A stretch of DNA of 64,000 nt from contig JAFDYX010000028.1 in NCBI GenBank assembly GCA_018267215.1, positions 54,607 through 118,606 on the forward strand, written 5' to 3'. The notes beneath the pieces are model-generated. The model was given only the letters and a program-made list of their open reading frames with translations. It did no database searches and was not told the DNA's origin. Source of the stretch: Bacteroidota bacterium. Its GTDB lineage: Bacteria > Bacteroidota > Bacteroidia > Cytophagales > Cyclobacteriaceae. Shown in pieces: positions 1,172 through 63,999 of the stretch. Position 1 is the stretch's first letter, and the number at the start of each line of letters is the position of its first letter. The translations under genes were made by a program, and so were the position numbers.

Positions 1172-1804
1172 TTGCAAAACGTCTCCACTGTTTTTCACTA
1201 TTTTCCTTCTCTCTCCGAACGGCAACAGCAACAATTTTCGGCACTTGCGTCCTTGTATGCCGAATGGAATGAAAAGATCAATGTTATTTCGCGCAAGGAT
1301 ATTGAAAACATTTATATCAATCATGTTTTGCATTCGCTGGGGATTGCCCGGGTGGTATCATTCAACAAAGGCGCAGAAATTATGGATGTAGGAACCGGTG
1401 GGGGTTTTCCCGGAATCCCACTATCTATTTTGTTTCCCGAAACTCAATTTTATCTAGTTGATTCCATCGGAAAAAAAATAACGGTGGTGAAAGAAGTAGC
1501 TGCGGCATTGGAACTGAAAAACGTCTTTGCCGAACAAATCAGAGCGGAGCAGGTGAAGCGTAAATTCGATTTTATTGTGAGTCGAGCCGTAACACGGATG
1601 AAGGAATTTTACGGCTGGACTCACAAAAACATCAAGCCAAAATCCATACATTCTCTTGATAACGGAATTTTATACCTGAAAGGCGGAGACTTAGACGAAG
1701 AGATGCGCGAACTGAAAATGCCGTACAGTGAATATCTGCTTTCGGATTATTTTAAAGAAGATTTTTTTGAAACGAAGAAAGTGATTTACGTGCCGGTTCA
1801 TTAA
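1172..1804 (+). CDS. rsmG: 16S rRNA (guanine527-N7)-methyltransferase RsmG
   Basis: RsmG (GidB) methylates N7 of G527 in 16S rRNA using S-adenosylmethionine; loss of the activity gives low-level streptomycin resistance in other bacteria. At 210 residues it has the usual length. The SAM-binding loop is visible as DVGTGGGFPGIPL near residues 72-84, and the family motif VSRAVTRM lies near residue 135. The chosen start is a TTG codon, because the translation is family-like from FHYFPSLSERQ onward and no ATG precedes it in frame. The gene converges on crcB and their stop codons overlap by 3 bp. Confidence 0.93.
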   Translation: MQNVSTVFHYFPSLSERQQQQFSALASLYAEWNEKINVISRKDIENIYINHVLHSLGIARVVSFNKGAEIMDVGTGGGFPGIPLSILFPETQFYLVDSIGKKITVVKEVAAALELKNVFAEQIRAEQVKRKFDFIVSRAVTRMKEFYGWTHKNIKPKSIHSLDNGILYLKGGDLDEEMRELKMPYSEYLLSDYFKEDFFETKKVIYVPVH

Positions 1805-2184
1805 CCGTTCTCTCCCCAATACATCCCTCCGAAAGTAGCTGCCAGGCAAAGCAGCAAACTGGAAAAAATATAAACCAGCGTGGAGAAATGAAATCCGTTT
1901 TGAATGAGCGCCAGTGTTTCAGCGCTGAATGTTGAAAAAGTACTGAAGCCTCCGCAAAAACCAACTGCCCAAAAAAGCCGGGCTGCCGGGGAAATTAGCT
2001 GCCGGTGGTCTGCCACCCCGATAACATAGCCCAGCACCAGGCAGGCCACCACATTAACGGTAAGCGTGCCAAAAGGAAAATGATGTGTGTGCAGGTCGTT
2101 CACCCACTTGCCCAGTACAAACCGCACGATACTTCCTGCGCCTCCGCCCACAAATACAATCACGATGTCGTAAAAATATTTCAT
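1801..2184 (-). CDS. crcB: Fluoride exporter CrcB/Fluc
   Basis: A 127-residue four-helix membrane protein of the CrcB/Fluc fluoride channel family, which works as a dual-topology dimer in the inner membrane and lets fluoride leave the cell. Family signatures are GGGAGSIVRFVLG near residues 13-25 and GFCGGFSTFSTFSAE near residues 76-90; the second holds the conserved polar and Phe residues of the fluoride path. It follows plsC with a 4-bp ATGA overlap, so the two are probably cotranscribed and translationally coupled. I saw no fluoride riboswitch upstream of the pair. A single crcB copy in this arrangement would act as a homodimer. Confidence 0.92.
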   Translation of the reverse strand: MKYFYDIVIVFVGGGAGSIVRFVLGKWVNDLHTHHFPFGTLTVNVVACLVLGYVIGVADHRQLISPAARLFWAVGFCGGFSTFSTFSAETLALIQNGFHFSTLVYIFSSLLLCLAATFGGMYWGENG

Positions 2185-2912
2185 TGGTTTTCTTCAATCA
2201 TTTTTTTCATTACATCAAATGCCTGTTGTTTCAACAAAGCAGCTTCGCTGGATGCAGCCACAGGAATTTCGCTGCCTACAAAAATCTTAACTAACCCAGG
2301 CCTCAGGTTAATGGTGCCGGGTGGCATTAATTTTCCCGCGCCTATCACTACTATCGGCAGCAAGGCCGTTTGGGTATCTACCGCCAGCCGAAATGCTCCG
2401 TCTTTAAAAGGCTGCAAAATTTCTTTCGATCGGTTTTGTGTGCCTTCGGCAAAAAGTAAAATCGAAATGCCATGTGCCAATGTTTCTTTTAACCGATCCA
2501 AACTTTTTTGTTTGCTCTCGCGGTCTGATCGGTCAACGATAACCGTTGCCCCGCGTGCAATCCAGCCGAACACAGGTATTTTCAATAATTCTTTTTTTGC
2601 CAAAGGTCTGAATTCCCCGGGTATCAACAGCCGTATGCCGGGCAGGTCTAAAAAAGAGGTGTGGTTACTGACATAGATGTACGATTTCCCTTGGCGAAAA
2701 TTTTCTCTACCGTAAAACTGATAACGGATAAACGTAAGCCAACTGAAGACCCCTGACCATATCCATAAAAATTTATAGCCGATCCAACTGAACCGGTTGC
2801 CAAACAAAAAAGGCAGTGTGAGCCCCGGCAAAAACAGGAGCATAAAAAAAGTAAATACTATAAACACCCAAAAAATATACAACGCACTAATTACTTTTCT
2901 AATGATGACCAA
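2181..2912 (-). CDS. plsC: 1-acyl-sn-glycerol-3-phosphate acyltransferase
   Basis: A 243-residue LPLAT-family acyltransferase that converts lysophosphatidic acid to phosphatidic acid at the cytoplasmic membrane. One hydrophobic segment spans about residues 8-38. The catalytic HX4D motif is H84-TSFL-D89 and the substrate-binding motif is EGTQ at 156-159 (EGTR in most homologues). Length and motif spacing are normal for PlsC. The stop overlaps the crcB start by 4 bp. Acylation of another lipid, such as an ornithine lipid, is possible for this family, but plain PlsC is the simplest call. Confidence 0.85.
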   Translation of the reverse strand: MVIIRKVISALYIFWVFIVFTFFMLLFLPGLTLPFLFGNRFSWIGYKFLWIWSGVFSWLTFIRYQFYGRENFRQGKSYIYVSNHTSFLDLPGIRLLIPGEFRPLAKKELLKIPVFGWIARGATVIVDRSDRESKQKSLDRLKETLAHGISILLFAEGTQNRSKEILQPFKDGAFRLAVDTQTALLPIVVIGAGKLMPPGTINLRPGLVKIFVGSEIPVAASSEAALLKQQAFDVMKKMIEENQ

Positions 2913-2962
2913 AGTGATGTGGTTTTAAATGAATGATTGGTGTTCGCCATTAATTTACTGTG

Positions 2963-3037
2963 TGGGATTTGTGGGATTCGAACCCACGACCCCTACCCTG
3001 TCAAGGTAGTGCTCTAAACCAGCTGAGCTAAAACCCC
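2963..3037 (-). tRNA. tRNA-Val (GAC anticodon)
   Basis: A 75-nt tRNA on the minus strand. The acceptor stem is GGGGTTT paired with AAATCCC (one G-T pair), with discriminator A. The D-arm holds AGCTCAGCTGG. The anticodon stem is CTACC/GGTAG around loop TTGACAG, giving anticodon GAC, which reads Val codon GTC. The T-arm is GTGGGTTCGAATCCCAC. CCA is not encoded. Two degenerate copies of its 5' half lie just upstream in transcription order. Confidence 0.96.
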
Positions 3038-3325
3038 ATTATTTTTTTGCTAAGATATGAAAAGGAAACACACACACTTGATAGAAACGATTTCGCAAAA
3101 ACTGAACTGATCTATAAAATCCTTACGCACCACCCGCTTGGGCGAGGATGCTCTGAACCAGCTGAGCTAAAACCTCATTATTTTTTTGCTAAGATATGAA
3201 AAGGAAATACACTAACATGATAGAAACGATTTCGCAAAAAACTGAACTGATCTATAAAATCCCTGCGCACGACTCTCCCGCTTAGGTGAGAATTCGTTAA
3301 CCCAACTGAACTAAAACCTCAATAG
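3038..3325 (-). repeat. Two decayed tandem copies of the tRNA-Val 5' half and its upstream region
   Basis: A unit of about 140 bp is repeated in tandem to the right of the tRNA. Each unit holds the D-arm part (CAGCTGAGCTAAAACC on the plus strand, at about 3020-3037, 3159-3176 and 3303-3320) plus the flank TTTTTTTGCTAAGATATGAA, an AGAAACGATTTCGCAAAA stretch and ACTGAACTGATCTATAAAATCC. Copies two and three keep the 5' acceptor and D-arm, lose a sound anticodon stem and have no T-arm, so they are not functional tRNAs. The rest of this 427-bp gap between plsC and lipA holds nothing else I recognise. Confidence 0.8.
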
Positions 3326-3339
3326 TATTTTTAGAAGAC

Positions 3340-4221
3340 TCACGCCATCGGCACGTTTACATGGCGTTCGGCATGGTAAGAAGACCGAACCAATGGACCC
3401 GATTCAACATACTTCAATCCGCGTTTCAATCCTTCTTCTTTGTAGAGGGCAAATGTTTCGGGATGGATAAATTCAGCTACTTCCACATGCATTTTGGTAG
3501 GCTGCAAGTATTGACCCAATGTCAAAATCATCAGTCCGTTGGCAGCCAAATCATCCATGGCTTTCAGTACTTCTTCTTTTGTTTCCCCTAAGCCCAGCAT
3601 GATTCCGCTTTTGGTTCTCTTGCCGGCTTCTCGTATGCGCTTGATCTGCTCGAGGCTGCGTTCGTATTTTGCCTGCGGTCGCACCATGCGGTAAAGCCTG
3701 CCTACCGTTTCCATGTTATGGCTCACTACTTCCTGGCCTGCTTCTATCATCCGGTAGAGGGCATCCCAATTTCCTTTGGTGTCGGGTATCAGGGTTTCAA
3801 TGGTAGTGGTGGGGCAAAGTTGTTTTGTTTGAAAAACAGTTTGATACCAAATCTCTGCACCCCGGTCTTTCAGTTCATCGCGGTTTACAGATGTGATGAC
3901 GGCATGCTTCACGCCCATTTTTTTGATGGCAACCGCTACACGCTGGGGCTCGTCCACATCATATTCGGTGGGGCGGCCTGTGGCCACCGCGCAGAAGGTG
4001 CAACTACGGGTGCACACATTCCCTAAAATCATAAAGGTAGCAGTGCCTGCTCCCCAGCATTCGCCCATGTTGGGGCAATTGCCGCTTTCGCAAATGGTGT
4101 GAAGTTTATTTTCATCTACCAGCCTGCGCACTTTGGCATACTCCGGTCCTACGGGCAACTTCACGCGCAGCCAGTCGGGTTTGCGTTTTTTGGGTTCTTC
4201 GATAACAGGAAGTTCGATCAT
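3340..4221 (-). CDS. lipA: Lipoyl synthase
   Basis: LipA is a radical SAM enzyme that inserts two sulfurs into octanoyl groups bound to carrier proteins, making lipoyl cofactors for GcvH and the 2-oxoacid dehydrogenases. The 293-residue protein has both iron-sulfur sites: the auxiliary cluster C44-x4-C49-x5-C55 ([12 protein letters not shown]) and the SAM cluster C70-xxx-C74-xx-C77 (CTRSCTFC). The C-terminal RSSYHAE motif supplies the serine ligand of the auxiliary cluster. It sits 61 bp downstream of gcvH, which encodes one of its substrates, so an operon is likely. Confidence 0.97.
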
Positions 4222-4282
4222 AGCTCAGAAAACTTTAGATGGCGGCAATACCTTTGCAGGTTAGCCTCCTCTATTAACCCTT

Positions 4283-4663
4283 CTATTTACCAATAAGTTC
4301 TTTGTACTGATCTGCACTTAAAAGTTGTGCTGTTTCTGCCGGGTTGCTGATAGTCATTTTGATCATCCAGCCGTCTCCGTAAGGATCGTTGTTTACTTTG
4401 TCGGGGGCAGTCTCCAATGATTTATTAAACTCCGTGATTTTTCCCGTCAGGGGAAGAAACAAGTCTGAAACAGTTTTCACTGCTTCCACGGTGCCGAACA
4501 CATCGTGCTGATTAAGTGTTTGGCCTGCGGTGGTAACATCTACATACACAATGTCGCCCAGTTCGCCTTGGGCAAAAGCAGTAATACCTACGGTGGCCTG
4601 GTTACCATCCAGTTTAATCCACTCGTGATCTTTGGTGTACTTTAATTCGGAAGGGATGCTCAT
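4283..4663 (-). CDS. gcvH: Glycine cleavage system H protein
   Basis: GcvH is the lipoyl-carrying shuttle of the glycine cleavage system in the cytoplasm; it can also take part in lipoyl relay. It is 126 residues, the standard length, and the lipoyl lysine is K63 in GTVEAVKTVSD. It lies upstream of lipA and downstream of sprA. A TAnnTTTG box 25 bp before the start suggests that gcvH-lipA has its own promoter even though sprA, ruvA and this pair all point the same way. Linkage of gcvH with sprA is, to my knowledge, also seen in other Bacteroidota. Confidence 0.96.
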   Translation of the reverse strand: MSIPSELKYTKDHEWIKLDGNQATVGITAFAQGELGDIVYVDVTTAGQTLNQHDVFGTVEAVKTVSDLFLPLTGKITEFNKSLETAPDKVNNDPYGDGWMIKMTISNPAETAQLLSADQYKELIGK

Positions 4664-4687
4664 ATTTTTGTTGATAAATTAAGAGCC

Positions 4688-4695
4688 CAAATTTA
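4688..4695 (-). promoter_or_regulatory. Candidate -7 promoter box for gcvH-lipA
   Basis: On the minus strand this reads TAAATTTG, a full match to TAnnTTTG, 25 bp upstream of gcvH and in the short gap after sprA. No convincing -33 element was found. Confidence 0.35.
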
Positions 4696-4713
4696 AACTA
4701 TATCCGTGAGAAA

Positions 4714-7700
4714 TTATTGGGTCAACTGGAATATCAATTTAAACCCACCCCGGGTGGTAGCCCGGTAATACGAGTTTGATACCAGCGGATTGTTGGTAGT
4801 GCGTTCGATATAAAACTGAAGTTGCAGTTTCTTGTTGATGGCATAACTAATGTTGGGTCTGAACTGGAAATTGATGTTGCCATTGGTAATGGTGCTGCCC
4901 TGATCTATCCTGCGTTGGATGGTGGCCGTACTCATCAAGCTCATGGTAAACCGGAAGGTGATATCGTTTTTCAGGGTGATGATGCGCCCTGCATCGCGAA
5001 AAGGAAGGCGCATGTTATTTTTGGTGTAGCCCACCTCTACCGACCAGTCTTTGCCGTTTACTTCTGTAATTTGTGCGTTAGGCACACTGAGCGAAATATC
5101 GCGCTTGGTTTTGTAGTTAAAAGTGAAACTCAATTTAGTTTTCGTTCTTACATTAATGCCTATTAACGGAGCAAATGTTTCGCTGATCAAGACCTGACTG
5201 ATTACAAAAACCGGAACTAACTGCCGCAATGAATCGGTGTTAAATTGAGATGCCAAATAAGAACGGTTATAATTTTCTACAGAGCTGGAAACATTTAATT
5301 GATTAAAGTCATTATACAGCAGCGAATTAGAATAGTTAGCAACCATGTACGATGACGAGTACGCATGGCTGATCAGCACAGAGCTAAAAATATTTTTAAA
5401 CGGCTCCAGTTTATTAAGTCCCGAATAATCCAGCCGCCAGTTGGGTAACGGAATGGACGGAAATGGCGAGAGACCCACCGTTTGGGCAGACCTGCCCGAA
5501 TAGGCAGCGATAAAGGCGGGTATCAGCACATCTTGCGATTGGGTGTTGTATCCATCGCTGCTATAGGCTTTAAACCTTCTTTGTAATACACCCAAATTGG
5601 TTTTAAACTGATTGAACACATCTGAATTCATGTCATTATTATTTTTGAAAGCCGTTGCCACAGAAATAAAAGAAATTTTGTACGAACCATTTCGCGATGG
5701 ATTTAAACCCGCATACGCGCCCTGACCGGTCGTATCTCTGAAAATTTCTTGAAAGGAGGCATTCGATGTTTTTTTGGCATCGAACTGAATTTTCACGTCA
5801 TTAAACGGCTCCATCGAGGCACGCAGGCTGAAGTCTTTCGTCTGCGTTTGCGAAAAAGGCGTAGTCAGTTTTTTATTGTGAACGAGCCATCCGTTGTTGG
5901 CCGCCTTTTGCGCGATGTACGGATCTTGCTCGCCCAACACAAAGCCAACACCGGGCGCCATCCACGACTGATCCAGCCCGAGGAGCTTCGGTGTTTTGTT
6001 AAAGCCGGCCAGCATGGTTCCTTCTGTAACCATGTAGGTTACGTTAATGCTGCGCAGCGACATAATCAGGCGCAGCATGGCTTTCAGCAATTTCAGTTCG
6101 GGCGGATGCGGCACCGTATCGGCACGGGCTAACCGCAATCGTTCTGCTTCATTTTTAGGCGGTGGCGGTTTAGGCTTGGGCGAGTTAATGTCTTTCAAAA
6201 AACCAATCTTATTATACAACTTAACCATGTCCATTTTGCCGGTGAGTGCCTGGTTCCGCGTATTCTGAATGGTATTGCCTATTTTTAAGCTATCCACCGT
6301 TTCTAACGGACCCGCCCGCCAGTTATAGCCTACCGTATATTTATAATCGGCACTTACCCAGTTGGTAGCAGGAAATTTATCGAACGGCAATGTGTAAGTA
6401 GTGTTGATGTTCTGTTCAAAATATTTCATGCGCCCCAACTTCTTTAAATTTCCTATCACCGAATCGCGTGCATGCTGGGTGTTGATGTCGCCATAGGGTT
6501 CGTCTATAATAGCGTTGGCGGTGGCGTTATAATCTACCTTTAGTGATTTGGTGATAGCCCAACTCATATTATAGTAACGGTTGAAGACAAAGAATTTTTG
6601 GTAATTGGGCAATTGTGTAATTGAAGTGGGGTCGTTGTTGCGGTAAGCAATTTTAGTGAACGATCGTTCTAGCTCGCCCCGCACCGACATAGAGGTAGGC
6701 ACCGGGTTAACATTAAAATCTTTGAGCAACTGCAAATATTTGGAGGAAGTAAACTTCACATCTTTCAGCGGCTGGATGCCTTTAAACTTAGATTGATACT
6801 GCCAGCCTACCGCGCCCTTCACATTCTTGCGTGTGTTCTGCATCAAATTGAAGTTGTGCTGATTGGCCTCCGTGTAGAGGTAGGTAAACGTAAAATTTTC
6901 TATGTCGTAGATATGGTTTACCGCATCTTTCTTCACTTTCATTTTTCGCACATTCGTGAAGTTGATACTCTTCCGGGTGGATATATCCATGATTTTATTT
7001 AGGTAGGCCGATCGTTGTGCATCTGTGGCAAAGGCGTTGAGTGCAGCGTTGATCCGCAAGTCGGGATTGGCCGGATCGAATTTCGGGTCGGCAATGATGC
7101 TTTCGTAACTGAAGAACATCGGGATTTTTAAACCCGTGTTGCGCGGCAAAAGTTTTTCCAGGTTCAGGTTCATCGAAATATCAAACTGGTTGATGTTGCT
7201 GCGCGAGCGCTGATAGATTTTTGTTTGCACATCGCCATATCCAAACCCAATGTGGCGGTACGAGCCGGTGATGGTGCCCAGGTCTGCCAGCTTCGTACTC
7301 ATCACTACATTGGCGGCCCATCCGGGCGTTTGGTCGAACCCCGTCAGGCGCAGTTCATCTGCCCACATACACACATCATAACTTCGGCCGTCATCGCGCG
7401 GGTTGCGGATACCTATCATAATCATTTTAAGCTGGCTCAGGTCGGGGCGCCCCATAATGCGGATGGAGTGTTTGCCATCGGGTAAAGGCTGCGGGCCATA
7501 TTGCGGGTAAGGAACCGTTAACGGATAAGCCGCTCTGTCGCGCTGGATTTTAAGCGCATACAAATCATCGAGTGCCAAGTCAATTTGGTTTTGCAACGGC
7601 CACACTTCACTCTGCGAATTGGTATTGGGCGGGGTAACTGCCAGCGGCAATTGCACCTCATAATAGTTCTGATCCCAGTCGGTACCAATACGTAAGAAGC

Positions 7701-10700
7701 CAATGGTTTGATTATTTTTTACCAGTGGCCCGTGCACGCTGATGAACATCTGAATCCGTTTGTAGTTAAACAAATCCATCGTTACGTTCTTGTACATGGC
7801 GCGTGCATCACCATCAGGCAGTCCTGTTACACACAACTGCACAGACTGTTCGTTTAGCCTTCGTTGCACAACAGAGGTTACATCATAGTCGCGAGCCAGC
7901 GGAGTTACATAGCCGGGTTTGTTTCCATCGGGCTGTCCATTCTCTTCGATGTTTACCGTGGAGATTGTAAAATTGTCATAGTTGGGTTCGGGTACTTCCG
8001 TCAGGGCAGATTCAAGCAAGCTGCCTGTATATTGCCTCCACCGCTGCCCCACCAAGCGGAAGTTAACCATGCGCAGCACTACCGGCTGGTTAAATCCCGT
8101 CATCACCATGCGCAGGTATTTAATTGTTTTAAAGCCGTTGATTTCTCCCACTTGTGAATCGAAATTTCTGATGGGGATACGGAACAGATACCAGGTTACA
8201 CCCGGAAAAGCCGAAGGCGAAATTTTGTCAACAATATATTTGTTGCCAACCTGCAGTTGATTGGGGCGCAGGTTGATGTTGTAAACATAGTAGTCTTCCA
8301 CGTCAGTCAGCGTATTGTCGCCATTAATGTCTTCGTTGTCGGGCAGCGTAGTGCCGGCAACCGAGTAAGCCGAGGCGCCCGAAACGATGGGCGAGTTGTT
8401 TTCTAAGCCGTTATAGTTTTTGTAGCGTTGCAAAACCTGTGCTTTGTTATTGTCGTAATCCTGCCCCAGATAATACTGAAAGTCATCGGCTGAGGGGTCT
8501 TTCAGTACGATGGGCTGAGCTGTTGCCGGAACAGCGTTTATAAAACTTTGAAATTTTGGGTCTGTTGCTTCCCGTGCACTGCTGAGTCCATCAAAGCCTA
8601 CATCTTGATTGGGCCGTGATGTACTCGAGTTATCAAATGCATTGTTTACATACTGTTTGTTGGTGATGTAGCCCCATGGGCTGTTTTGATAAACATTGTT
8701 GGAGCTGAGGTTGCCATCTACCGGTAGCCCGTTTTCAAATGCCTGCTCATTGTCGTGCCCCACATCTTCTGAAACATTGCCCAAATGGAAAATCAAATTT
8801 CCTCCAGTTGTATTGTTTGTATTGAAAATCCCATCTTGCACTACCCCGTTCGCCCCGGTGATAAACGGATCCATCATCCAAAACTCCAGATACTCAATGT
8901 TGGCAGCATCAAAGTCCACATTGGTGCGAATAGCCGTAGTGATCCCTGCCCAGTTATTGGCGGGCGCTTGCAAGGTAGCATCTGCATTGAGGTTAGGGTT
9001 GTAGTTGTACTGGCCGCGTTCGGAAGGAAAATACGCTACGTTCAATACCGGTTGATAAAAATTGCCGATATAGTTGTCGAAGTAGGGAAAAATTTCTCTG
9101 GGCGCTACGGGTCGTTGGTAGTGGTTATTTAAGTTAATATTGGGCGGTGCATAAGAATATCCGCCAGACACATAAAAAATATTATCAATCTGAAACCACG
9201 ACATCTTGGCTCGTAAGTAACCCGAGCGCAAGTCATTTAAGGCGCCATTGGTTTTATCATAAGCTGATTCGCGCGGTGTAGAAGCCAGCTTCCATGCCTG
9301 GGGCGAGAGCAGACTGTACGGTGTGGCGGCATTTTCAAAATCATCAATAAACGAAGTGGCTTGCCCCTGCACTTTGTTGGAAGAGCCCGGCAACAATTGG
9401 GCAAACTCAGCATTAAGCGAAAAAGTAGATTTCTCCTTAGTTTCCAGAAAGGGCAGCGCATCTACCATCTTGGTAAGCAGCCGCGAATTTTTCTTCATGT
9501 TGATATCCAACCCATATTGAAAGTTGCGAGCCGGCTCATTGCCGATCAGGTTACGTGTAATCAATGGCCTTTCGTTGTAATACAATAGTGTTGCCCCGAT
9601 GTTTACGTCATCATTGAGTTTGTAATCCAGGCGAGTGCCCAGCAGAGATCGAGTTTGAAAAGAAAATGGATCTTGTTGCTCGTAGGTGATGTCCATGTCT
9701 TTGCCCGAGTTGAGAATACCCTCATTCAGTATCGTCACTTTTCCGAAGGTATAGTCAACAGTATAATCAAACCCTTCGCGCAGCGGAGTGCCCCCCGAAT
9801 AAACTTTTACAGAGCCGGGAGTCAGACTGAAGGCACCTTGAATGATAATGTCGCGGCCGGTGCCGGACTTAAAACTTCCGACAAAAAAGAATTTGTTTTT
9901 ATTATTCACCAGCACGGCCTCGGCCTGTGTGGTGTGATAGAGGGTGTCGTACAAATATTTATTATACAAAAAATCCCTCGTGTCGGGGTTAGATTCGAAT
10001 TTAGAACTGAACAAATATTTAAGCCCGTCATTGAACGGCTCTACATAAGGTACAACGATGAGCCCTAAGGCTGAGTTGATGGTGATCCCCTCCAGATAGT
10101 CGAAGTTGCCATCGGGTTGCGGGTCTCCATACGGGTTGAGGCGGTCGAGGCTCATGACCGAAACAAGTTGCTGTGCCCGCACAGGCGGGTCGCCATCTTG
10201 CAACTGCGGATTATCTATACCGGTACGGTCATCGCGGTAGATAACACGCAGCTGAAATCCATCTTTGGTAAGGTTGGTTACGCCTAGGTTGTAAATGTTT
10301 TTCATCATCAGGTTCCAGGTGGGGTATATTCCCCCGACACTGTCTTTGATATTGATGGCACGTGGGCGCAACATTTTCATGTAGATCACATCGTTGGTAG
10401 GACTGTTGGAATAATCTTCCGTCATCTGTCCTACTTTATACGACCTGCCGTTGTAAGTATATTCATACGACACGGCCAGCGCCTCATCATTCTGCAATTT
10501 CCGCTGTAGCGTAATATACCCGAGTTGGGCATTGAGTGTGTATTCGGTGGGGCTCAGCTTGCGGGCACTTTGCAAACGCTCAAAATCATATCCTTGTTTC
10601 AGCCCTCTTGAAGTGAGCGCGTTTACCACAGACGAGCTGTTGGCACTGATGCCTCCGGTTGTCAGTATGTCGTAAAGGTTATTCGATTCGATTCCATGCT

Positions 10701-55473: not shown

Positions 55474-55710
55474 ATGACGTTAACCATTAAAAACAAGAAA
55501 GTGAAAGCCAAGCCCATGAAGGACGCCAAAGGAAATGATGGCTACTTCATTCCAGCCAAAGAACTTTCGTTTCTTGAAAAGCCAACAAAAAGCAAACCTA
55601 AAAGACCATCCATTTACCCTGAGGTGAAAGAAGCCCTTGAAGAAATGAAACTGATGGTGCAAGGGAAACTAAAAACTACCGAAGCAAAAGAGTGGTTAAA
55701 ATCTCTGTAA
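55474..55710 (+). CDS. Putative antitoxin of a RelE/ParE-type pair
   Basis: A 78-residue basic and Lys-rich protein, 12 bp before a RelE-like toxin gene. No DNA-binding fold is certain. The C-terminal part (PEVKEALEEMKLMVQGKLKT, then EAKEWLKSL) is an amphipathic helix of the kind that wraps RelE/ParE toxins. The call rests on size and gene order. Since the toxin frame is broken, the pair may be decaying. Confidence 0.5.
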   Translation: MTLTIKNKKVKAKPMKDAKGNDGYFIPAKELSFLEKPTKSKPKRPSIYPEVKEALEEMKLMVQGKLKTTEAKEWLKSL

Positions 55711-55722
55711 ATTATACGCACT

Positions 55723-56063
55723 GTGTTTCGGGTCATCCCTACCTTTCGCTTTCAAAAAGAGTCAAAAAAAATTGCCAGAAAATTTCCAGCTTTTAAATTC
55801 AGTTTAGATCAACTTATTACTTCACTTTCCCATCAACCCATTCAGGGCAGTCATTTGGGTGAAGGAATTTACAAAGTGAGAATGGCCATTGCAGGGAAAG
55901 CTTCGGGCAAGAGTTATGCGCCCGCTCCATCCATGCGGTGATCACTTTCAGAAAAGAAGTTTATCTACTATCTGTTTACGACAAGAGCGATAAAAAAGAC
56001 ATGACAGCAAAGGAACTCAAACAAATGGTTGAAATAGTAAAACAAATCAAGTCAGCGTTATGA
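55723..56063 (+). pseudogene. RelE/ParE-type toxin gene with a frameshift
   Basis: The first 72 codons from a GTG start encode a RelE-like N-half (RFQKESKKIARKFPAFKFSL ... LGEGIYKVRMAIAGKASGKS), then a premature stop at 55939. In another frame the downstream DNA encodes the matching C-half (ARSIHAVITFRKEVYLLSVY, DKSDKKDMTAKELKQMVEI, VKQIKSAL), ending at 56061-56063 where it overlaps the lhgO start. One extra G at about 55918 (TATGGCGCCCGC in place of TATGCGCCCGC) would join them as SYGARSIHAVITF. This looks like a single-base deletion, natural or a sequencing error. Confidence 0.75.
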
Positions 56064-57332: not shown

Positions 57333-57418
57333 AAAAAAGACGACCCTGATGTTACTCGGGGCCGCCTTAAATGTTTTCACAACGGAATAATCCTTATTGT
57401 GATTTGCTTCAGATTGAT
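57333..57418 (-). ncRNA. tracrRNA of the type II-C CRISPR system
   Basis: Read on the minus strand, it starts with an anti-repeat CAATCTGAAGCAAATCACAA (57397-57416) that pairs with 20 nt of the CRISPR repeat at the window end, leaving one bulged U. Next come AAGGATTATTCC and GTTGTG, a hairpin that repeats part of the anti-repeat pairing, then AAAACATTTAA and a terminator hairpin GGCGGCCC/GGGTCGTC (57339-57366) with TTTTTT. This is the standard Bacteroidota tracrRNA layout. It is divergent from cas9 and transcribed opposite to the cas genes, like the array. Confidence 0.88.
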
Positions 57419-57441: not shown

Positions 57442-60400
57442 ATGAAAAAGGTTTTAGGATTGGATTTGGGGACAACTTCTATCGGTTGGGCTTTGGTAAA
57501 CGAAGCCGAGAACAACAATGAAACATCATCAATCATCAAACTTGGTGTACGAGTAAACCCCTTAACAGTTGACGAACAACAAAATTTTGAAAAAGGGAAA
57601 AGCATAACTACCAATGCCGACAGAACATTGAAACGCAGTATGCGTAGAAACCTGCAACGCTATAAACTTCGCAGAGAAAACCTGATTGAGATTTTGAAAG
57701 AACATCAGTTTATTTCTAGTGAAACCATTTTATCCGAAAACGGAAATCGCACCACGTTTGAAACCTATCGCCTAAGAGCAAAATCAGCTACCGAAAAAAT
57801 TTCGTTGGAAGAATTTGCCCGTGTGTTGCTGATGATTAACAAAAAGCGCGGTTACAAAAGCAGCCGCAAGGCCAAAGGAACAGAAGAAGGTTCGTTGATT
57901 GATGGAATGGAAATTGCTAAAAAATTGTATAACGAAAATCTTACCCCCGGGCAGTTTTGTTTGCAGTTGATAGTTGCAGGTAAAAAATATTTACCTGATT
58001 TCTATCGCTCAGATTTGCAAGCTGAGTTCGATAAAATTTTTGATAAACAATTGAGTTTTCATTCTGAAATACTTTCGCTTGAATTGAAAGAAGAATTGAG
58101 AGGAAAAAAGCGTGATGCCGTTTGGGCTATTTGTGCTAAAGCCTTTAAGGAAAAAGGATTTGAATTAGTTGGTAAAAAACGGCAAGGCAAAGCTGACGAA
58201 CAGAAAAAAGAGAATTATGCTTGGCGTGCAAATGGATTAACTGAAAAATTGGATTTGGAAAAATTGGTTATTGTCTTACAACAAATCAATGTACAACTCA
58301 ATAGTTCAAGCGGCTATCTCGGGGCCATCAGTGACAGAAGCAAGGAATTATTTTTCAATATAATAAAGAAAGAAGACGGAACAGACCGTGCTCAAACAGT
58401 TGGTGAATATCAAATGAGTGTGTTGGGTAAAAACCCGAATGCAAGTTTACGCAATATGGTTTTTTATCGTCAGGATTATTTGGATGAATTCAATGCCATT
58501 TGGGATGAACAAGCTAAACATCACAAAGAACTGACTGAAAAATTGAAAACAGAAATCCGTGATGTCATCATCTTTTATCAGCGAAGATTGAAATCACAGA
58601 AAGGACTAATCAGTTTTTGTGAATTTGAAAGCCGACAAATTGAAGTTTTGATTGACGGAAAGAAGAAAACAAAAACCGTTGGTAACCGTGTCATTCCGCG
58701 TTCTTCTCCATTGTTTCAGGAGTTTAAAATATGGCAGGTGGTGAATAATGTTGAAGTATATGGCAGAGGAAAAAAGAGCAGAAGAAACACAAAGGAAAGC
58801 CAAATTGCCAATCAAATTTCAGAAAACGAAAGAAGGTTGCTTCATCAAGAAGAAAAAGAAATTTTAGCTGCTGAACTTTCTATAAAACCCAAAATAACAA
58901 AAATTGAAGCGTTGAATTTGTTGTTTGAGAATCCGAAAGAGCTGGATTTTAACTTCAAAGAAATTCAGGGAAACATCACACAAGCAAAACTGTTTGAAGC
59001 CTATCAGAAAATCATAGAAGTATCAGGACATGAATTGGATTTGAATAAACCAGCAGAAGAAATTTTAAACGATGTTTCAAACATCTTTAAAACACTTGGC
59101 TTTAACACCGACATTTTACAGTTCGATTCTGCTAAACCATTAGATGAACAAGAGATGTACAAGCTTTGGCATGTACTCTATTCGTTTGAAGGCGACAACT
59201 CAAATACAGGAAATGAAAAACTCATCAACAAACTGATGACTGATTTTGGTTTTGATAAAGTTTCTGCAAGCATTCTATCCAATGTAAATTTTTTAGACGA
59301 TTATGGAAGTTTGAGCGCAAAAGCTATTCGAAAAATTTTACCACATTTAAAAGAGGGGAATCAATATAATGTGGCTTGTGAATATGCTGGCTATCGTCAT
59401 TCAAAATCTTCGTTAGAGAAAGAAGAAATTGAAAACAAGGTTTACAAGGATCGTTTGGAAATTTTGGCAAAAAATTCTTTGCGAAACCCCGTGGTGGAGA
59501 AAATACTCAATCAGATGATTAACGTGATTAACACCATCATTGAAACGTATGGAAAACCCGAAGAAATCCGAATTGAATTAGCGCGTGAGTTAAAAAAGAA
59601 TGCAGAGGAACGCAAAAAATTAACAGAGGCAATTAGCAAATCAACAGATGAACATGAGATCTATAGAAAAATATTGACAGACGAAAAAGGCTTGTTTCGT
59701 TTAAAATATATTAGCCGCAACGACATCATTCGTTACAAATTATATGATGAATTAAAAGACAATGGCTATAAAACACTCTACTCAAATACATACATAGAAC
59801 CAGGAAAATTATTCAGTAAAGAATTTGACATTGAACACATCATTCCGCAAGCACGTTTGTTTGACGATTCGTTTTCAAATAAAACATTGGAAGTGCGAAA
59901 TATTAACATTGAAAAAGGAAACAAAACTGCTTATGATTTTGTGAAAGAAAAATATGGAGAAACAGGAAGCGAAAATAGTTTAGATAAATTTTTGGTTCGC
60001 ATGGAAGATTTGTATAAAAAAGGAGTTCTTAAACGCACCAAATACAACAAACTAAAAATGTCGGAGAAAGACATACCTGAAGGATTTATCAATCGTGACT
60101 TAGGCAACACGCAATACATCGCCAAATACGCAAAAACAATGCTGGGCGATTTGGTAAAATTTGTTGTGAGTACAACAGGTACAATCACAGATCGCTTGCG
60201 CGAAGACTGGCAATTGGTGGATGTGATGAAAGAATTGAACTGGGAAAAATACAACACACTTGGGTTAACAGAAGTTCTTGAAAAAGAAGATTACGAAGGA
60301 AACAAAATCAAAATCCGAAGGATAAAAGATTGGACTAAACGCAACGACCATCGCCATCATGCGATGGACGCTTTGACCGTTGCCTTTACCAAGCGACAGC

Positions 60401-61842
60401 ACGTTCAATACCTAAACAACTTAAATGCACGAAGCAATAAAGGTTCAGAGATTTATGGCATTGAACAAAATGAATTATACCGAAACGATAAAGGAAAGCT
60501 ATTGTTCAAACCACCGTTTGCATTAAACGAGTTTAGAATTGAAGCAAAAAAACATTTAGAGAACACATTGATTTCGATCAAAGCAAAAAATAAAGTTGCT
60601 ACGAAAAACATCAACACAACAAAGAAAAAAGGAGGTGCGAACAAAAAAGTGCAACTCACACCACGCGGACAACTTCATTTGGAAACAGTTTACGGTAGCC
60701 TGAAGCAATATGCTTCCAAAGAAGAAAAAGTAGGAACAACTTTTGACGAAGCTAAAATTTTAACCGTGAGCAGACCAGCTTATCGTGAGGCTTTACTTAA
60801 ACGCTTGCGCGAAAATGCTAATGACCCCAAAAAAGCCTTTAGTGGAAAAAATGCTCCGACAAAAAATCCGATTTACATTGATGAGGCCAGATTACATCCC
60901 GTTCCTGAAAAGGTAAAAACGGTAACGCTTGAAACGGCTTACACTATTCGCAAGGAGATTACGCCTGACTTATTTAAAGATGCGAAGAAGAAAGACATCT
61001 TTGAAAAAGCTTTAACAGAAACAACAAACTTATCGGAAATAGAAGTATATGATAAGGCGATTGATTTCATTTTTGACAAGGGAATTAGAAATGCTTTAAT
61101 CGAACGATACAAAAAGGCAAAGCAAGAAATTGAAGAATACAACAAGCACTCAGAAAAGAAAAACCAAAAGAAAGTTCTTGATACGGCCTTTTCTAACATT
61201 GGCGAAAACCCTATTTATTTAAAAGAAGTTCGGGACAAGAACGGTCAAATTGACAAGACAAAAAGTATTGAGATTAAACGTGTAACCATTTCGGGCATCA
61301 GCAATGCTGAAGCCTTACATAGTAAAAAGGACAAGAACGGTAATTTGATTTTAGATGAGAACGGAAACGAACAAGCTGTTGACTTTGTAAACACAGGCGG
61401 CAATCATCACGTAGCTGTGTATCGTGATGCGGAAGGCAACTTACAAGAAAACGTAATTTCCTTTTACGAAGCCATAGCCCGAAAAAATGCTGGGTTACCA
61501 ATCATTGACAAAACATACAAACAAAGTGATGGTTGGCAATTTTTGTTCAGCATGAAGCAAAACGAGTATTTTGTCTTTCCTAATGAAAAAACAGGTTTCA
61601 ATCCTAAAGATTTTGATTTGTTAAATCCTGATAATTATTCTTTGATAAGTCCGAATTTGTTTAGAGTACAGAAATTAGCAACAAAAGATTATTTTTTTAG
61701 GCATCATTTGGAAACAAGTGTAGAAAGCAATAATACTTTAAAAGGTATTACTTGGATTAGGGCAGGATTGAGCGGAATTGAGAAAATCAACAAAATCCGA
61801 GTAAACCACATTGGTCAAATAGTTTCGGTTGGAGAGTATTGA
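57442..61842 (+). CDS. cas9: CRISPR-associated endonuclease Cas9, type II-C
   Basis: RNA-guided double-strand DNA nuclease, 1,466 residues. Catalytic residues by position: D8 in VLGLDLGTTSIGWAL (RuvC-I), E712 in IRIELARELKK (RuvC-II), H799 in FDIEHIIPQ (HNH), and H973 and D976 in HHAMDALTVAF (RuvC-III), spaced as in other Cas9 proteins. The Arg-rich bridge helix (RTLKRSMRRNLQRYKLRREN) is at about 60-80, the recognition lobe at about 80-690, and the PAM-interacting C-terminal part after about 1080. All catalytic sites are intact, so it should be active. It is large for type II-C but normal in this phylum. Base composition is clearly AT-richer than cas1 and the RAYT gene downstream. Confidence 0.97.
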   Translation: MKKVLGLDLGTTSIGWALVNEAENNNETSSIIKLGVRVNPLTVDEQQNFEKGKSITTNADRTLKRSMRRNLQRYKLRRENLIEILKEHQFISSETILSENGNRTTFETYRLRAKSATEKISLEEFARVLLMINKKRGYKSSRKAKGTEEGSLIDGMEIAKKLYNENLTPGQFCLQLIVAGKKYLPDFYRSDLQAEFDKIFDKQLSFHSEILSLELKEELRGKKRDAVWAICAKAFKEKGFELVGKKRQGKADEQKKENYAWRANGLTEKLDLEKLVIVLQQINVQLNSSSGYLGAISDRSKELFFNIIKKEDGTDRAQTVGEYQMSVLGKNPNASLRNMVFYRQDYLDEFNAIWDEQAKHHKELTEKLKTEIRDVIIFYQRRLKSQKGLISFCEFESRQIEVLIDGKKKTKTVGNRVIPRSSPLFQEFKIWQVVNNVEVYGRGKKSRRNTKESQIANQISENERRLLHQEEKEILAAELSIKPKITKIEALNLLFENPKELDFNFKEIQGNITQAKLFEAYQKIIEVSGHELDLNKPAEEILNDVSNIFKTLGFNTDILQFDSAKPLDEQEMYKLWHVLYSFEGDNSNTGNEKLINKLMTDFGFDKVSASILSNVNFLDDYGSLSAKAIRKILPHLKEGNQYNVACEYAGYRHSKSSLEKEEIENKVYKDRLEILAKNSLRNPVVEKILNQMINVINTIIETYGKPEEIRIELARELKKNAEERKKLTEAISKSTDEHEIYRKILTDEKGLFRLKYISRNDIIRYKLYDELKDNGYKTLYSNTYIEPGKLFSKEFDIEHIIPQARLFDDSFSNKTLEVRNINIEKGNKTAYDFVKEKYGETGSENSLDKFLVRMEDLYKKGVLKRTKYNKLKMSEKDIPEGFINRDLGNTQYIAKYAKTMLGDLVKFVVSTTGTITDRLREDWQLVDVMKELNWEKYNTLGLTEVLEKEDYEGNKIKIRRIKDWTKRNDHRHHAMDALTVAFTKRQHVQYLNNLNARSNKGSEIYGIEQNELYRNDKGKLLFKPPFALNEFRIEAKKHLENTLISIKAKNKVATKNINTTKKKGGANKKVQLTPRGQLHLETVYGSLKQYASKEEKVGTTFDEAKILTVSRPAYREALLKRLRENANDPKKAFSGKNAPTKNPIYIDEARLHPVPEKVKTVTLETAYTIRKEITPDLFKDAKKKDIFEKALTETTNLSEIEVYDKAIDFIFDKGIRNALIERYKKAKQEIEEYNKHSEKKNQKKVLDTAFSNIGENPIYLKEVRDKNGQIDKTKSIEIKRVTISGISNAEALHSKKDKNGNLILDENGNEQAVDFVNTGGNHHVAVYRDAEGNLQENVISFYEAIARKNAGLPIIDKTYKQSDGWQFLFSMKQNEYFVFPNEKTGFNPKDFDLLNPDNYSLISPNLFRVQKLATKDYFFRHHLETSVESNNTLKGITWIRAGLSGIEKINKIRVNHIGQIVSVGEY

Positions 61843-61859: not shown

Positions 61860-62489
61860 ATGGAGCCCAACCAATCATACCACCTCTACACCCACGCCAA
61901 CGGCTCAGAAAATCTTTTCCGTAACGAAGAGAACTTCCGGTATTTTTTGAAGCGGTATGAGGAATATATTCCGGCCGTAGCCGATACGCTGGCCTACTGC
62001 CTGATGCCCAACCACCTGCACCTGCTGGTGCGGATTAAAAGCGAAGCTGAGTTGACGGAGTTTTTTAATAAAAAAGAAAAAGACCTGACAGGTCTTTTAA
62101 GCGCGGATAAACAAGACCTGTCAGGTCTGGACGTACTTCAACGCCTTACCATCCTCCAATTCAGCCATCTTTTCAACGCCTACACCAAAGCGTATAATAA
62201 AGTTTATAAACGAAGAGGGTCGCTTTTTATCCGCGCCTTTAAACGAAAAGAAATTACCAGCGACAGCTACTTTACCGGCATTATCCACTACATACATCAC
62301 AACCCGGTACATCACGGTTTTGTAAAACAGCTTACCGATTGGCCGTGGAGTTCGTACCACCACTTTCTTTTACCAGAACTTACTCCGGCTCAGCAGGAAG
62401 TAATTGATTGGTTTGGCAATCGGCAGCAGTTTATTCTATTTCATCAGCAAGCCCCGGTGCCCACAACTGAAATTTTAGAACATGATTAA
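61860..62489 (+). CDS. REP-associated tyrosine transposase (RAYT, Y1_Tnp family) inside the cas operon
   Basis: A 209-residue single-domain HUH endonuclease of the IS200-like/RAYT family, which nicks single-stranded DNA at REP hairpins. The metal-binding HxH is H52-L-H54 in CLMPNHLHLLV and the catalytic Tyr is Y144 in IIHYIHHNPV. RRGSLFIRAFKRK and WPWSSYHHF are also typical. Its start is 17 bp after the cas9 stop and its last 8 bp overlap the cas1 start, so it is read as part of the cas operon. Residues 74-92 are encoded by two REP-like palindromes and form an insertion absent from the usual family. It looks intact and may be active or recruited. Confidence 0.9.
   Translation: MEPNQSYHLYTHANGSENLFRNEENFRYFLKRYEEYIPAVADTLAYCLMPNHLHLLVRIKSEAELTEFFNKKEKDLTGLLSADKQDLSGLDVLQRLTILQFSHLFNAYTKAYNKVYKRRGSLFIRAFKRKEITSDSYFTGIIHYIHHNPVHHGFVKQLTDWPWSSYHHFLLPELTPAQQEVIDWFGNRQQFILFHQQAPVPTTEILEHD
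62081..62095. repeat. REP-like palindrome 1 in the RAYT gene
   Basis: AGACCTGACAGGTCT: a 7-bp perfect stem around a single base, flanked by A and T runs. It lies within the coding sequence (encodes part of EKDLTGLL). It is the reverse complement of palindrome 2. Confidence 0.75.
62114..62128. repeat. REP-like palindrome 2 in the RAYT gene
   Basis: AGACCTGTCAGGTCT, 18 bp after palindrome 1 and its exact reverse complement (encodes part of KQDLSGLD). Together they make a BIME-like doublet in inverted orientation. Confidence 0.75.
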
Positions 62490-63429
62490 ACGCACCCTCT
62501 ACTTCGGCAACCCCGCCTACCTGAGCACCCGGCTCGACCAGTTGATCGTGCGGCTGCCGGCCGTAGAAAAAAATGCGGATGTGCCCGAAGAATTTAAAAA
62601 AGAGGCGCAGGCTACCATCCCCATTGAAGACATCGGCATTGTCATCCTCGATCACCAGCAGATTGTCATCAGCCAGGCGTTGGTAGCCAAGTTACTCGAA
62701 AACAATGTGGCTTTTATCACCTGCAACAACACCCACCACCCCACCGGCTTGCTTTTAAATTTGGATGGGCACACGCTGCAAAGCCAGCGTTTTCAGGCAC
62801 AGGTGGAAGCCAGCGAGCCGCTGAAAAAGCAACTGTGGCAACAGACCATCAAAGCAAAAATTAAAAATCAGGCTATCGCCCTGTCGGTGGCCGGAAAAGA
62901 AATACAAAATATGCTGCACTGGGCAGACGAAGTAAAATCGGGCGACATCGAAAACCACGAAGGGCGTGCGGCCGCCTGGTATTGGAAAAATATTTTTAGA
63001 GATGTGCTGGCCGGCCAGGCCGAGTTCGTTCGCGACCCTGTGGGCGATGCCCCCAACAACTTGTTGAATTATGCCTACGCCATCATCCGGGCTACGGCTG
63101 CGCGCGCGTTGGTAGGCTCGGGCTTGCTGCCTACGCTGGGCATCTTCCACCGCAATCAATACAATGCGTATTGTTTGGCCGATGATGTGATGGAGCCCTA
63201 CCGCCCCTATGCCGATCTGCTGGTAAGGAGTATTATAAAAGAAAGTGATGGAATGCTGCCGGAGCTGACGCCTGCCATGAAGAAAAAGTTGTTGCAACTA
63301 CCGGCCATAGATGTGGTGCTCGAGGGCGAAACCAGTCCGCTGATGATTGCCCTGCAACGCACCACCGCCTCGCTGGCAAAATGTTTTTTGGGCGAGGCGA
63401 GAAAGATTTCTTATCCGCTGATGGAATAA
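62482..63429 (+). CDS. cas1: CRISPR-associated endonuclease Cas1
   Basis: Cas1 is the integrase of the Cas1-Cas2 adaptation complex, inserting new spacers at the leader end of the array. It is 315 residues. The metal-binding residues are the Glu in NHEGRAAAWYWKNIF, the His in LGIFHRNQYNAYC and the Asp/Glu in LADDVMEPYRPYADLL. The N-terminal beta domain includes ERTL-like TLYFGNPAYLSTRLDQLIVR. It fits the type II-C group. Its ATG lies inside the end of the RAYT gene, so translation of the two is probably coupled. Confidence 0.97.
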   Translation: MIKRTLYFGNPAYLSTRLDQLIVRLPAVEKNADVPEEFKKEAQATIPIEDIGIVILDHQQIVISQALVAKLLENNVAFITCNNTHHPTGLLLNLDGHTLQSQRFQAQVEASEPLKKQLWQQTIKAKIKNQAIALSVAGKEIQNMLHWADEVKSGDIENHEGRAAAWYWKNIFRDVLAGQAEFVRDPVGDAPNNLLNYAYAIIRATAARALVGSGLLPTLGIFHRNQYNAYCLADDVMEPYRPYADLLVRSIIKESDGMLPELTPAMKKKLLQLPAIDVVLEGETSPLMIALQRTTASLAKCFLGEARKISYPLME

Positions 63430-63525: not shown

Positions 63526-63864
63526 ATGAAAACCGATCGCCTAAACGCCTATCGTATTATGTGGATCATGGTATTGTTCGATTTGCCCACCGAAACTAAA
63601 AAAGACCGGAAGCACTACACCGATTTTCGCAAGAAGATGATGAAAGACGGGTTTACCATGTTTCAGTTCAGCGCCTACCTGCGGCACTGCGCCAGCCGTG
63701 AAAATGCGGATGTGCACGTAAAACGGGTAAAAGCTAACCTGCCGCCCAAGGGGCACGTGGGGATATTAACGGTAACCGACAAGCAATTTGGCATGATGCA
63801 GCTATTTTATGGAGGGATGGAAAAAGAAAAAGCCCCGATTCCGCAACAGCTCGAACTGTTTTAG
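63526..63864 (+). CDS. cas2: CRISPR-associated protein Cas2
   Basis: Cas2 forms the dimeric core of the Cas1-Cas2 spacer integration complex. The 112-residue protein has the ferredoxin-like fold pattern IMVLFDLPTETKKDRKHY with the conserved Asp near residue 19, followed by FRKKMMKDGFTMFQFSAYLR and the C-terminal ILTVTDKQFGMM. The C-terminal LELF tail is a beta-type extension common in type II Cas2. It is the last cas gene and is followed 89 bp later by the CRISPR repeat. Confidence 0.95.
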   Translation: MKTDRLNAYRIMWIMVLFDLPTETKKDRKHYTDFRKKMMKDGFTMFQFSAYLRHCASRENADVHVKRVKANLPPKGHVGILTVTDKQFGMMQLFYGGMEKEKAPIPQQLELF

Positions 63865-63953
63865 GCGAGGCTTTTACTTGATGGATTGCACCATTTTTTT
63901 AATCCTGTTGAGCGATGTAATGTTCTGAGGCAGATGCTTTTAGCAATGGGTAC

Positions 63954-63999
63954 GCTGTATGCAATCTCATCAAAGAACAATCTGAAAGCAAATCACAAC
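63954..63999 (-). CRISPR. Leader-distal repeat of a type II-C CRISPR array running past the window
   Basis: A 46-nt unit on the minus strand that begins GTTGTGATTTGCTTTCAG and ends GCATACAGC, matching the ends and length of the 46-47 nt repeat typical of Bacteroidota type II-C systems. Only this one repeat is inside the window; base 64000 starts the first spacer. Pairing with the tracrRNA anti-repeat sets the crRNA direction to the minus strand, so transcription runs towards cas2 and this is the last, leader-distal repeat. Its middle differs from the usual repeat, as terminal repeats often do. The 89 bp between cas2 and the repeat hold no gene. Confidence 0.85.

Follow-up and report, generated by a model that had tools for sequence, protein, structure and literature searches.

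A RAYT-like Y1 HUH gene repeatedly stands before cas1 in Bacteroidota CRISPR-Cas loci

CRISPR-Cas loci of Bacteroidota recurrently carry a gene for a RAYT (REP-associated tyrosine transposase), and the association is real. The window, by which we mean the whole stretch of 64,000 nucleotides analysed here, comes from a Bacteroidota bacterium of the Cyclobacteriaceae and holds an intact RAYT gene between the cas9 and cas1 of a type II locus. RAYTs that stand before cas1 are found mostly in one Bacteroidota family and a few of its relatives. As the best explanation we propose, with about an even chance of being right (a probability of roughly 0.5), that a REP/RAYT unit, the gene of a Y1 HUH nuclease together with its own REPs, has settled in Bacteroidota CRISPR-Cas loci, where it travels mostly with cas1-cas2. 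We hold this reading because the gene keeps a recurrent, same-strand position, intact motifs, purifying selection and a divergence linked to that of Cas1 and Cas2, and because REPs lie inside and around it and, in one group, after cas2, while related RAYTs appear in type I loci and at array ends.

The initial annotation described the locus as cas9, 17 bp, an intact RAYT, an 8-bp overlap, cas1 and cas2, and gene calls together with family matches confirm this layout. All four genes lie on the forward strand: cas9 at 57442..61842 (1466 aa; TIGR01865, E 1.9e-141), the intact RAYT, a TnpAREP-like Y1/HUH gene identified by family match, profile against 4ER8 and fold, at 61860..62489 (209 aa), the type II cas1 at 62482..63429 (315 aa; TIGR03639, E 2.1e-84) and cas2 at 63526..63864 (112 aa; TIGR01573, E 1.6e-17). 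The gap between cas9 and the RAYT is 17 bp by the window's gene calls, and the RAYT stop overlaps the cas1 start by 8 bp on the same strand (ATGATTAA, 62482..62489; gene calls and sequence). No further cas gene stands among these three cas genes and the one CRISPR repeat that follows (63952..63999, a single copy, directly before the contig end), the array side being unassembled in this genome because the contig stops at 118606, the last base of the window. Repeats similar to this single copy occur in L137 and L140-L142. Just upstream of cas9, a 13-nt match to the repeat (57397..57409, forward strand) is a possible, weak tracrRNA anti-repeat. Farther upstream of the cas locus, at 55474-55941, two small ORFs have the look of a putative toxin-antitoxin pair, the second apparently short.

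Motifs and modelling make the window's RAYT a single-Tyr HUH (Y1) protein with a predicted TnpAREP-like fold. N51, H52 and H54 of its HUH motif NHLH (residues 51-54, codons at 62010..62021, forward strand) and the presumed catalytic Tyr144 in YIHHNP (62289..62291, forward strand) are invariant across 31 aligned RAYT sequences. The family of REP-associated tyrosine transposases, NF047646, matches it with E 3.3e-19 and 69.2 bits, below the curated cut-off of 80, and Pfam Y1_Tnp with E 5e-4, under its own cut-off; since the NF047646 cut-off is not reached, we name the protein RAYT-like because of its motif, its fold and its REPs. A profile of the 31 proteins matches E. coli TnpAREP (4ER8) with E 3.8e-8, the Tyr motif falling in a strong stretch and the HUH motif in a second, weak one (1.7 bits), within which NHLH is aligned to PEHMH. 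Tyr144 pairs with the first Tyr of YIYINP in 4ER8, chain position 115 by count, and Y115F is the catalytic mutant used for E. coli TnpAREP in the accessible text of PMC8266576. An AlphaFold2 model made with the 31 sequences has a pLDDT of 91, and its top Foldseek match in the PDB is again 4ER8 (E 1.5e-9; TM 0.54 by query, 0.68 by target). Confidence in the model is lowest in a loop around residues 74-90 (pLDDT 65 for 71-80, 58 for 81-90), which is encoded by a pair of palindromic REPs within the reading frame (AGACCTGACAGGTCT ... AGACCTGTCAGGTCT, 62081..62128).

The window's RAYT shares with E. coli TnpAREP the HUH and Tyr motifs, the best fold match and REP hairpins at the gene, but differs in its size (209 aa against a 165-residue chain), its in-frame REP loop and its location in a cas operon; a further difference is that the REPs of cas-linked RAYTs show, by eye, no obvious GTAG (GT[AG]G) foot. 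In its accessible part, the classification of PMC6006769 gives subclass 2.4, common in Bacteroidetes, in-frame REPs that generally lie between the HUH and Tyr motifs, and subclass 2.6, mostly from Bacteroidetes, the motifs NH[LIV]H and YIH[QN]NP with atypical hairpins lacking GT[AG]G. Cas-linked RAYTs share with subclass 2.4 the in-frame hairpin between the motifs (22/25 by strict scan). Because the window's RAYT has features of both subclasses, we leave it outside either.

How often does a RAYT stand before cas1? We searched with the window's Cas1 among 58 relatives and in two larger genome samples, 390 from the order and 395 from the phylum, fetched the surroundings of close matches and compared 118 cas1 regions, window included, leaving out the G168 region and the weak matches of G045, G049, G057 and, for G038, its second match. 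Just before cas1 and on the same strand, 22 of the 118 regions carry a RAYT, one of them broken (L138, excluded wherever an intact RAYT was needed); in the intact cases its match begins 599-694 bp upstream of cas1. The order sample has it in 15 of 52 loci and lacks it in 37, and within that sample the window's family has it in 14 of 19. For the genus, in the sample of relatives, the figure is 8 of 12 cas1 loci, one of them broken, while outside the order it is 1 of 56, the other 55 having no RAYT. A RAYT-first scan adds three loci, which brings the linked loci to 25, 24 of them intact (L034, L035 and L036 were excluded as duplicates of L141, L156 and L145). Among the best 80 of 532 relatives in that scan, nine lie in CRISPR-Cas loci, six before a type II cas1 and three in type I-like surroundings; these nine include the top six by similarity. 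Every one of the 24 intact cas-linked proteins keeps its HUH and Tyr motifs.

The recurrence with intact HxH and Tyr that the initial annotation wished to see checked is therefore there, and neither a single-strain oddity nor a gene with near-identical copies scattered across the genome is what we found: the window genome has one other RAYT relative only, 46% identical. A third doubt, that close relatives might join cas9 directly to cas1, is partly borne out. Four of the 12 genus loci are without a RAYT, two of them with tight cas9-cas1 spacing (23 bp in L144, 6 bp in L151), and eight have one. Searching the RAYT-free junctions with tblastn (threshold 1e-2, all 24 intact RAYTs as queries) gave no RAYT remnants. 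Where the RAYT is intact, it overlaps cas1 by 4 or 8 bp in 9 loci and is separated from it by 12-81 bp in 15.

RAYTs also live elsewhere. Relatives at E 1e-20 occur in 105 of the 390 order genomes, 15 at a type II cas1, most of the other surroundings lying outside the comparison. By our own count there are 31 RAYT loci in the 22 cas-linked genomes, 22 of them at cas1; the cas-linked gene is the sole RAYT found in 14 of the 22, and none of the nine second copies is near CRISPR genes. Twenty further RAYT loci of the order (L301, L303 and L304 repeat L040, L042 and L041) include one, L302, by CRISPR genes, several contigs being too short to judge. Recurrent neighbours are also seen among unlinked RAYTs (144 neighbours, largest group 6), a control that is weak because the unlinked set is partly CRISPR-linked itself.

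The presence of a RAYT needs 10 changes on the Cas1 tree, at least 7 of them on starred branches, against a shuffled mean of 23.1; this is a quick tree with long-branch warnings. Similarly, the cas-linked label changes 6 times on the RAYT tree against a shuffled mean of 21.6, but a single clade of cas-linked RAYTs, and with it a single origin, is compatible with the AU test (p 0.351); in both, 'linked' means before a type II cas1, and L037, L038, L039, L189 and L275 were scored unlinked though they lie in or beside CRISPR loci. Codon comparisons indicate that cas-linked RAYTs are under purifying selection: dN/dS (NG86) is 0.045-0.175 in 19 of 27 pairs, dS being saturated in the other 8, and the Cas1 values are 0.018-0.087 in the 8 of the same 27 pairs for which they are computable.

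These results bear on the idea that the border between cas9 and cas1 tolerates many small genes, the RAYT being merely the commonest of them. In fact, the cas9-cas1 gap is at least 340 bp in 12 of the 81 measurable RAYT-free loci (of 96), and other genes do sit there, such as junction ORFs alike by eye in L152 and L224 and, by its Pfam match, a Y1 protein in L237. RAYT-free L154, L164 and L191 have ORFs of about 390 aa at this place, alike by eye and presumably ATPase-like, and we take the junction ORF of L147 to be another ATPase-like one and that of L162 to be Fic-like, also by eye. Yet the RAYT, in 22 of 118 regions, outnumbers each other junction gene, is clustered on the Cas1 tree, is under purifying selection and has its own REPs around cas1-cas2, so that passive insertion seems to us very unlikely. 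Likewise, the view of the initial annotation that this is not a chance landing stands: several families have the gene before cas1, on the same strand, 24 of 25 copies are intact, purifying selection acts on it, and it mostly follows cas1-cas2.

On the whole, RAYT divergence goes with Cas1 and Cas2 and not with Cas9, and the coupling is imperfect both ways. In Mantel tests, which like the Cas1 tree leave out L139, L152 and L196 for their short or broken Cas1, the Spearman correlation of RAYT distances is 0.60 with Cas1 and 0.57 with Cas2 (p 0.001, n=24 intact loci), and -0.04 with Cas9 (p 0.68, n=23). Pairs of close genomes tell the same story: G008 and G017 are 97% identical in rpoB, 74% in RAYT, 83% in Cas1 and 27% in Cas9, and G024 and G010 are 97%, 69%, 84% and 24% identical, respectively (rpoB comparisons cover nine of ten genomes, the window genome, in which rpoB was not found, being left out). 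In L137, a new cas9 precedes a 119-aa remnant of another cas9, 63% identical to the window's, and then comes the RAYT. We considered whether the RAYT drives this exchange of cas9 and rejected it: Cas1 and Cas9 distances are uncorrelated with a RAYT present (-0.02, n=23) and equally without one (-0.10, n=31, order; 0.04, n=75, all).

The imperfect side of the coupling is plain in three pairs. Cas1 is 88% identical and RAYT 56% between the window and L137, where identity steps near the RAYT/cas1 border; RAYT is 79% and Cas1 65% between the window and L156; and Cas1 is 81% and RAYT 63% between L145 and L156. L156 is the locus of Chryseotalea sanaruensis, an isolated strain. Identity steps near that border indicate that the RAYT has therefore also been exchanged by itself. 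On the RAYT tree, L137 joins L173 and L183 (support 90, branch not starred). Truncated RAYT copies stand in tandem in L142, L143, L173, L178 and L068, those of L142 with a 225-bp period and REPs between copies.

What of the hairpins? A strict scan of the 25 linked loci places them inside the RAYT in 22 (one being the broken L138), before it in 12, in the RAYT-cas1 interval in 11 and after cas2 in 10. Of the latter, eight are REPs directly 3' of cas2 (L068, L171, L174, L175, L176, L178, L180, L181), all in one group of related Cas1; L055 has REPs about 310 and 480 bp further beyond cas2, and the hairpin of L064 is terminator-like. In the window the strict scan found no REP on either side of the RAYT, only the pair in frame; in relatives REPs also flank the gene. 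Two REP types, each 33 bp, swap places among close relatives (e.g. inside the gene, L171 versus L174), and in L180 the RAYT carries one type while another, common among its Cas1 relatives, lies after cas2, as if one RAYT had been replaced by another.

Genome-wide, an exact-pair search found the window's REP pair once, inside the RAYT, and not in many dispersed copies; its 11-base core occurs 8 times in the window genome, 6 of them elsewhere without the pair (exact matches). The exact pair is present in 9 of the 22 linked genomes. In the six near the window (G000, G008, G010, G024, G268, G313), 8 of 8 copies lie in the RAYT locus; in G316 it stands after cas2 and in G413 and G259 on other contigs. 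For another REP type, 25 exact copies are spread over 7 of the 22 linked genomes, with up to 7 copies per genome in relatives; by our own count 19 of the 25 lie elsewhere than at the cas locus. Among RAYT-free loci, strict scan and pattern gave no REP-type hairpin after cas2, a count that is too strict: of L177, L179 and L185, read by eye, L179 and L185 have decayed REPs there. REP-like hairpins lie elsewhere in the RAYT-free loci L190 and L196. The two loci read by eye suggest that a RAYT may keep hairpins in shape. A separate curiosity is L047, where a long tandem array of REP hairpins (5695-8531) stretches on both sides of the RAYT with a CRISPR-like period and palindromic units; we rejected these apparent repeat arrays as CRISPRs, for they are REP tandems.

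Hairpins in such places raise the thought that RAYT and REPs tune the output of cas1-cas2, through mRNA stability, attenuation or translational coupling. A RAYT-cas1 hairpin is present in 11 of the 25 linked loci, with overlap instead in most of the window's group, and a REP occupies the site after cas2 where some RAYT-free loci carry other hairpins. But hairpin sequences vary freely, the two REP types swap, and by strict scan a RAYT-cas1 hairpin is missing from 5 of the 15 intact loci with a gap; such local regulation, as read from the sequences, would be quite unlikely. We also regard as unlikely, if a shade less so, a semi-mobile cassette for adaptation made up of RAYT, REPs, cas1 and cas2, in which a Y1 HUH enzyme acting at bracketing REPs (before the RAYT, between RAYT and cas1, and after cas2) would let the module or whole loci swap effectors and genomes. 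In IS200/IS605 elements, TnpA, a Y1 HUH enzyme, stands beside an RNA-guided nuclease, TnpB or IscB, and if the cassette were true, a Y1 enzyme and an RNA-guided nuclease system would be paired anew in bacteria living today. RAYTs are, however, a separate class, and no element ends enclosing cas9 were noticed in an unsystematic look.

Related RAYTs sit in other CRISPR contexts as well. In L037 (Algoriphagus sp. AGSA1) the order is cas8-cas7-cas3-cas4-RAYT-ORF-cas1-cas2-array, with type I-PGING Cas8 and Cas7 and an I-B type Cas1 by NCBIfam. L039 (Gracilimonas mengyeensis), its genes named from likeness to L037 or from reading, has cas3, an ORF, the RAYT, cas4, an ORF, cas1, cas2 and the array, and L038 (Fulvivirga marina) has cas6, cas4, cas1, cas2 and the array, then the RAYT. 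In L302 (genome G060), the RAYT lies 90 bp downstream of a putative cas5, whose name comes from its position (neither Pfam nor NCBIfam matches it), and the operon also includes a DevR-family cas7. In L275 and L189 a type II array has the RAYT at its far end, on the opposite strand. L275 and L044, from closely related genomes (L044 is of the Balneolaceae), have flanks 93% identical over 3,608 nt on one side and 90% over 716 nt on the other, with RAYTs 84% identical. After the RAYT stop come 53 bp in L044 and 6,682 bp in L275, comprising array, cas2, cas1 and cas9. A CRISPR-Cas9 locus of 6.7 kb is thus present or absent beside the RAYT (L044, 6619-6671; L275, reverse strand, 1515-8196), which may reflect either its gain or its loss.

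Y1 proteins of other kinds were also seen. In L262, L264, L267 and L270, a different Y1-type gene lies between cas2 and the array, convergent to cas2; it is present in 4 of the 8 loci of one Cas1 clade (f26, class-level relatives) and matches Pfam Y1_Tnp with E 1.9e-7 in L264. In L237, the cas9-cas1 junction where RAYTs sit in other loci is occupied by a 143-aa IS200-like Y1 protein (Pfam E 3.4e-28), whose motif YIKNQEEHH resembles RAYT subclass 1.2 as given in the accessible part of PMC6006769.

Could the RAYT have been recruited to aid Cas1-Cas2, e.g. by nicking or trimming a single-stranded or hairpin prespacer, in a place like that of Cas4 or Csn2? It sits with cas1-cas2 and co-diverges with them, overlaps cas1 in 9 of 24 loci and keeps its motifs in 24 of 24; related RAYTs adjoin cas4 in the type I loci L037 and L039, and other Y1 proteins lie by adaptation genes, in L237 and in the four class-level-relative loci after cas2. 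Arrays, on the other side, give no sign of altered acquisition in their size or spacer length. Their median size is 25.5 repeats with RAYT (n=20) and 27 without (n=23; p 0.87), many being cut by the fetched stretch (6 of 20 RAYT loci, 13 of 23 RAYT-free), and 30 nt is the commonest spacer length in all 18 loci with a RAYT and in 65 of the 68 other loci. Moreover, most loci do without a RAYT, 37 of 52 in the order sample and 55 of 56 beyond the order, and some RAYTs stand at an array end or after the putative cas5, away from cas1. The Cas4- or Csn2-like role put forward in the initial annotation thus finds no support so far: arrays and 30-nt spacers are alike without a RAYT, type I operons also hold RAYTs away from cas1, and the overlap is one variant of the junction. 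Among RAYT-free genus loci, cas1 is broken in L139 and L152, whose Cas1 is most like the window's, and whole in L144 and L151, and it is whole in all eight genus loci with a RAYT; this could hint at dependence, post hoc and in a tiny sample. The RAYT may act in acquisition or in the expression of cas1-cas2, and we hold recruitment as an adaptation cofactor as a tentative second choice; the data can be explained without any direct help to spacer acquisition.

We return to the REP/RAYT unit settled at cas1-cas2. Studied TnpAREP enzymes cleave and rejoin single-stranded REPs in vitro (PMC8266576, accessible text), and by analogy the RAYT would nick single-stranded REP hairpins. In the genomes near the window, the enzyme would act mainly on REPs in the cas locus. 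Their cutting and rejoining would maintain hairpin shape and may lead to local copying or replacement, leaving tandem truncated RAYTs, swapped REP types and replaced RAYT lineages. The unit would profit from moving with an often transferred defence module, and its same-strand, sometimes overlapping placement would help to retain it in the operon. Several observations speak against this. The cas-linked RAYT is the sole copy in 14 of 22 genomes and the exact REP pair is nowhere else in six, which is poor spreading for a selfish unit and would fit a local function better. A cellular benefit would account equally well for purifying selection over saturated dS, and the broken cas1 of RAYT-free L139 and L152 (post hoc, tiny sample) may also count against the unit, as does the imperfect coupling to Cas1 (window and L137, 88% for Cas1 and 56% for RAYT; window and L156, 65% and 79%). 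Finally, the REPs lack, by eye, an obvious GTAG foot, and their nicking by a cas-linked RAYT is proposed by analogy.

Among the open-access papers searched we found no description of RAYTs in cas operons, most subscription papers being outside that scope. The main text of PMC6006769 has no occurrence of 'crispr' or 'cas1', and the word-found parts of PMC3733652, PMC8049555, PMC3686654 and PMC3390384 hold nothing on the subject. In situ Cas9 shuffling in subtype II-C is described in the accessible part of PMC12669027, whose main text has neither 'RAYT' nor 'HUH'; closely related cas1 with distant cas9 is common to both cases, and the difference is that here a RAYT mostly remains with cas1-cas2 as cas9 changes. 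Genes linked to adaptation, among them RNaseH, DNA polymerases, membrane proteins and others, are reported in the accessible part of PMC10910872 (main text: 'HUH' 0 times, 'IS200' once) and are, like the RAYT, unexpected neighbours of Cas adaptation modules. The suggestion in PMC3116915 (accessible part) that REPIN-like elements may have given rise to CRISPRs also links REP/RAYT with CRISPR but concerns the origin of repeats, with no RAYT in a cas operon.

Thus, a RAYT that recurs in CRISPR-Cas operons is either a new accessory of adaptation or a transposase relative riding a defence module. Both readings are testable in culturable environmental isolates, and the finding matters for understanding the exchange of adaptation and effector modules.
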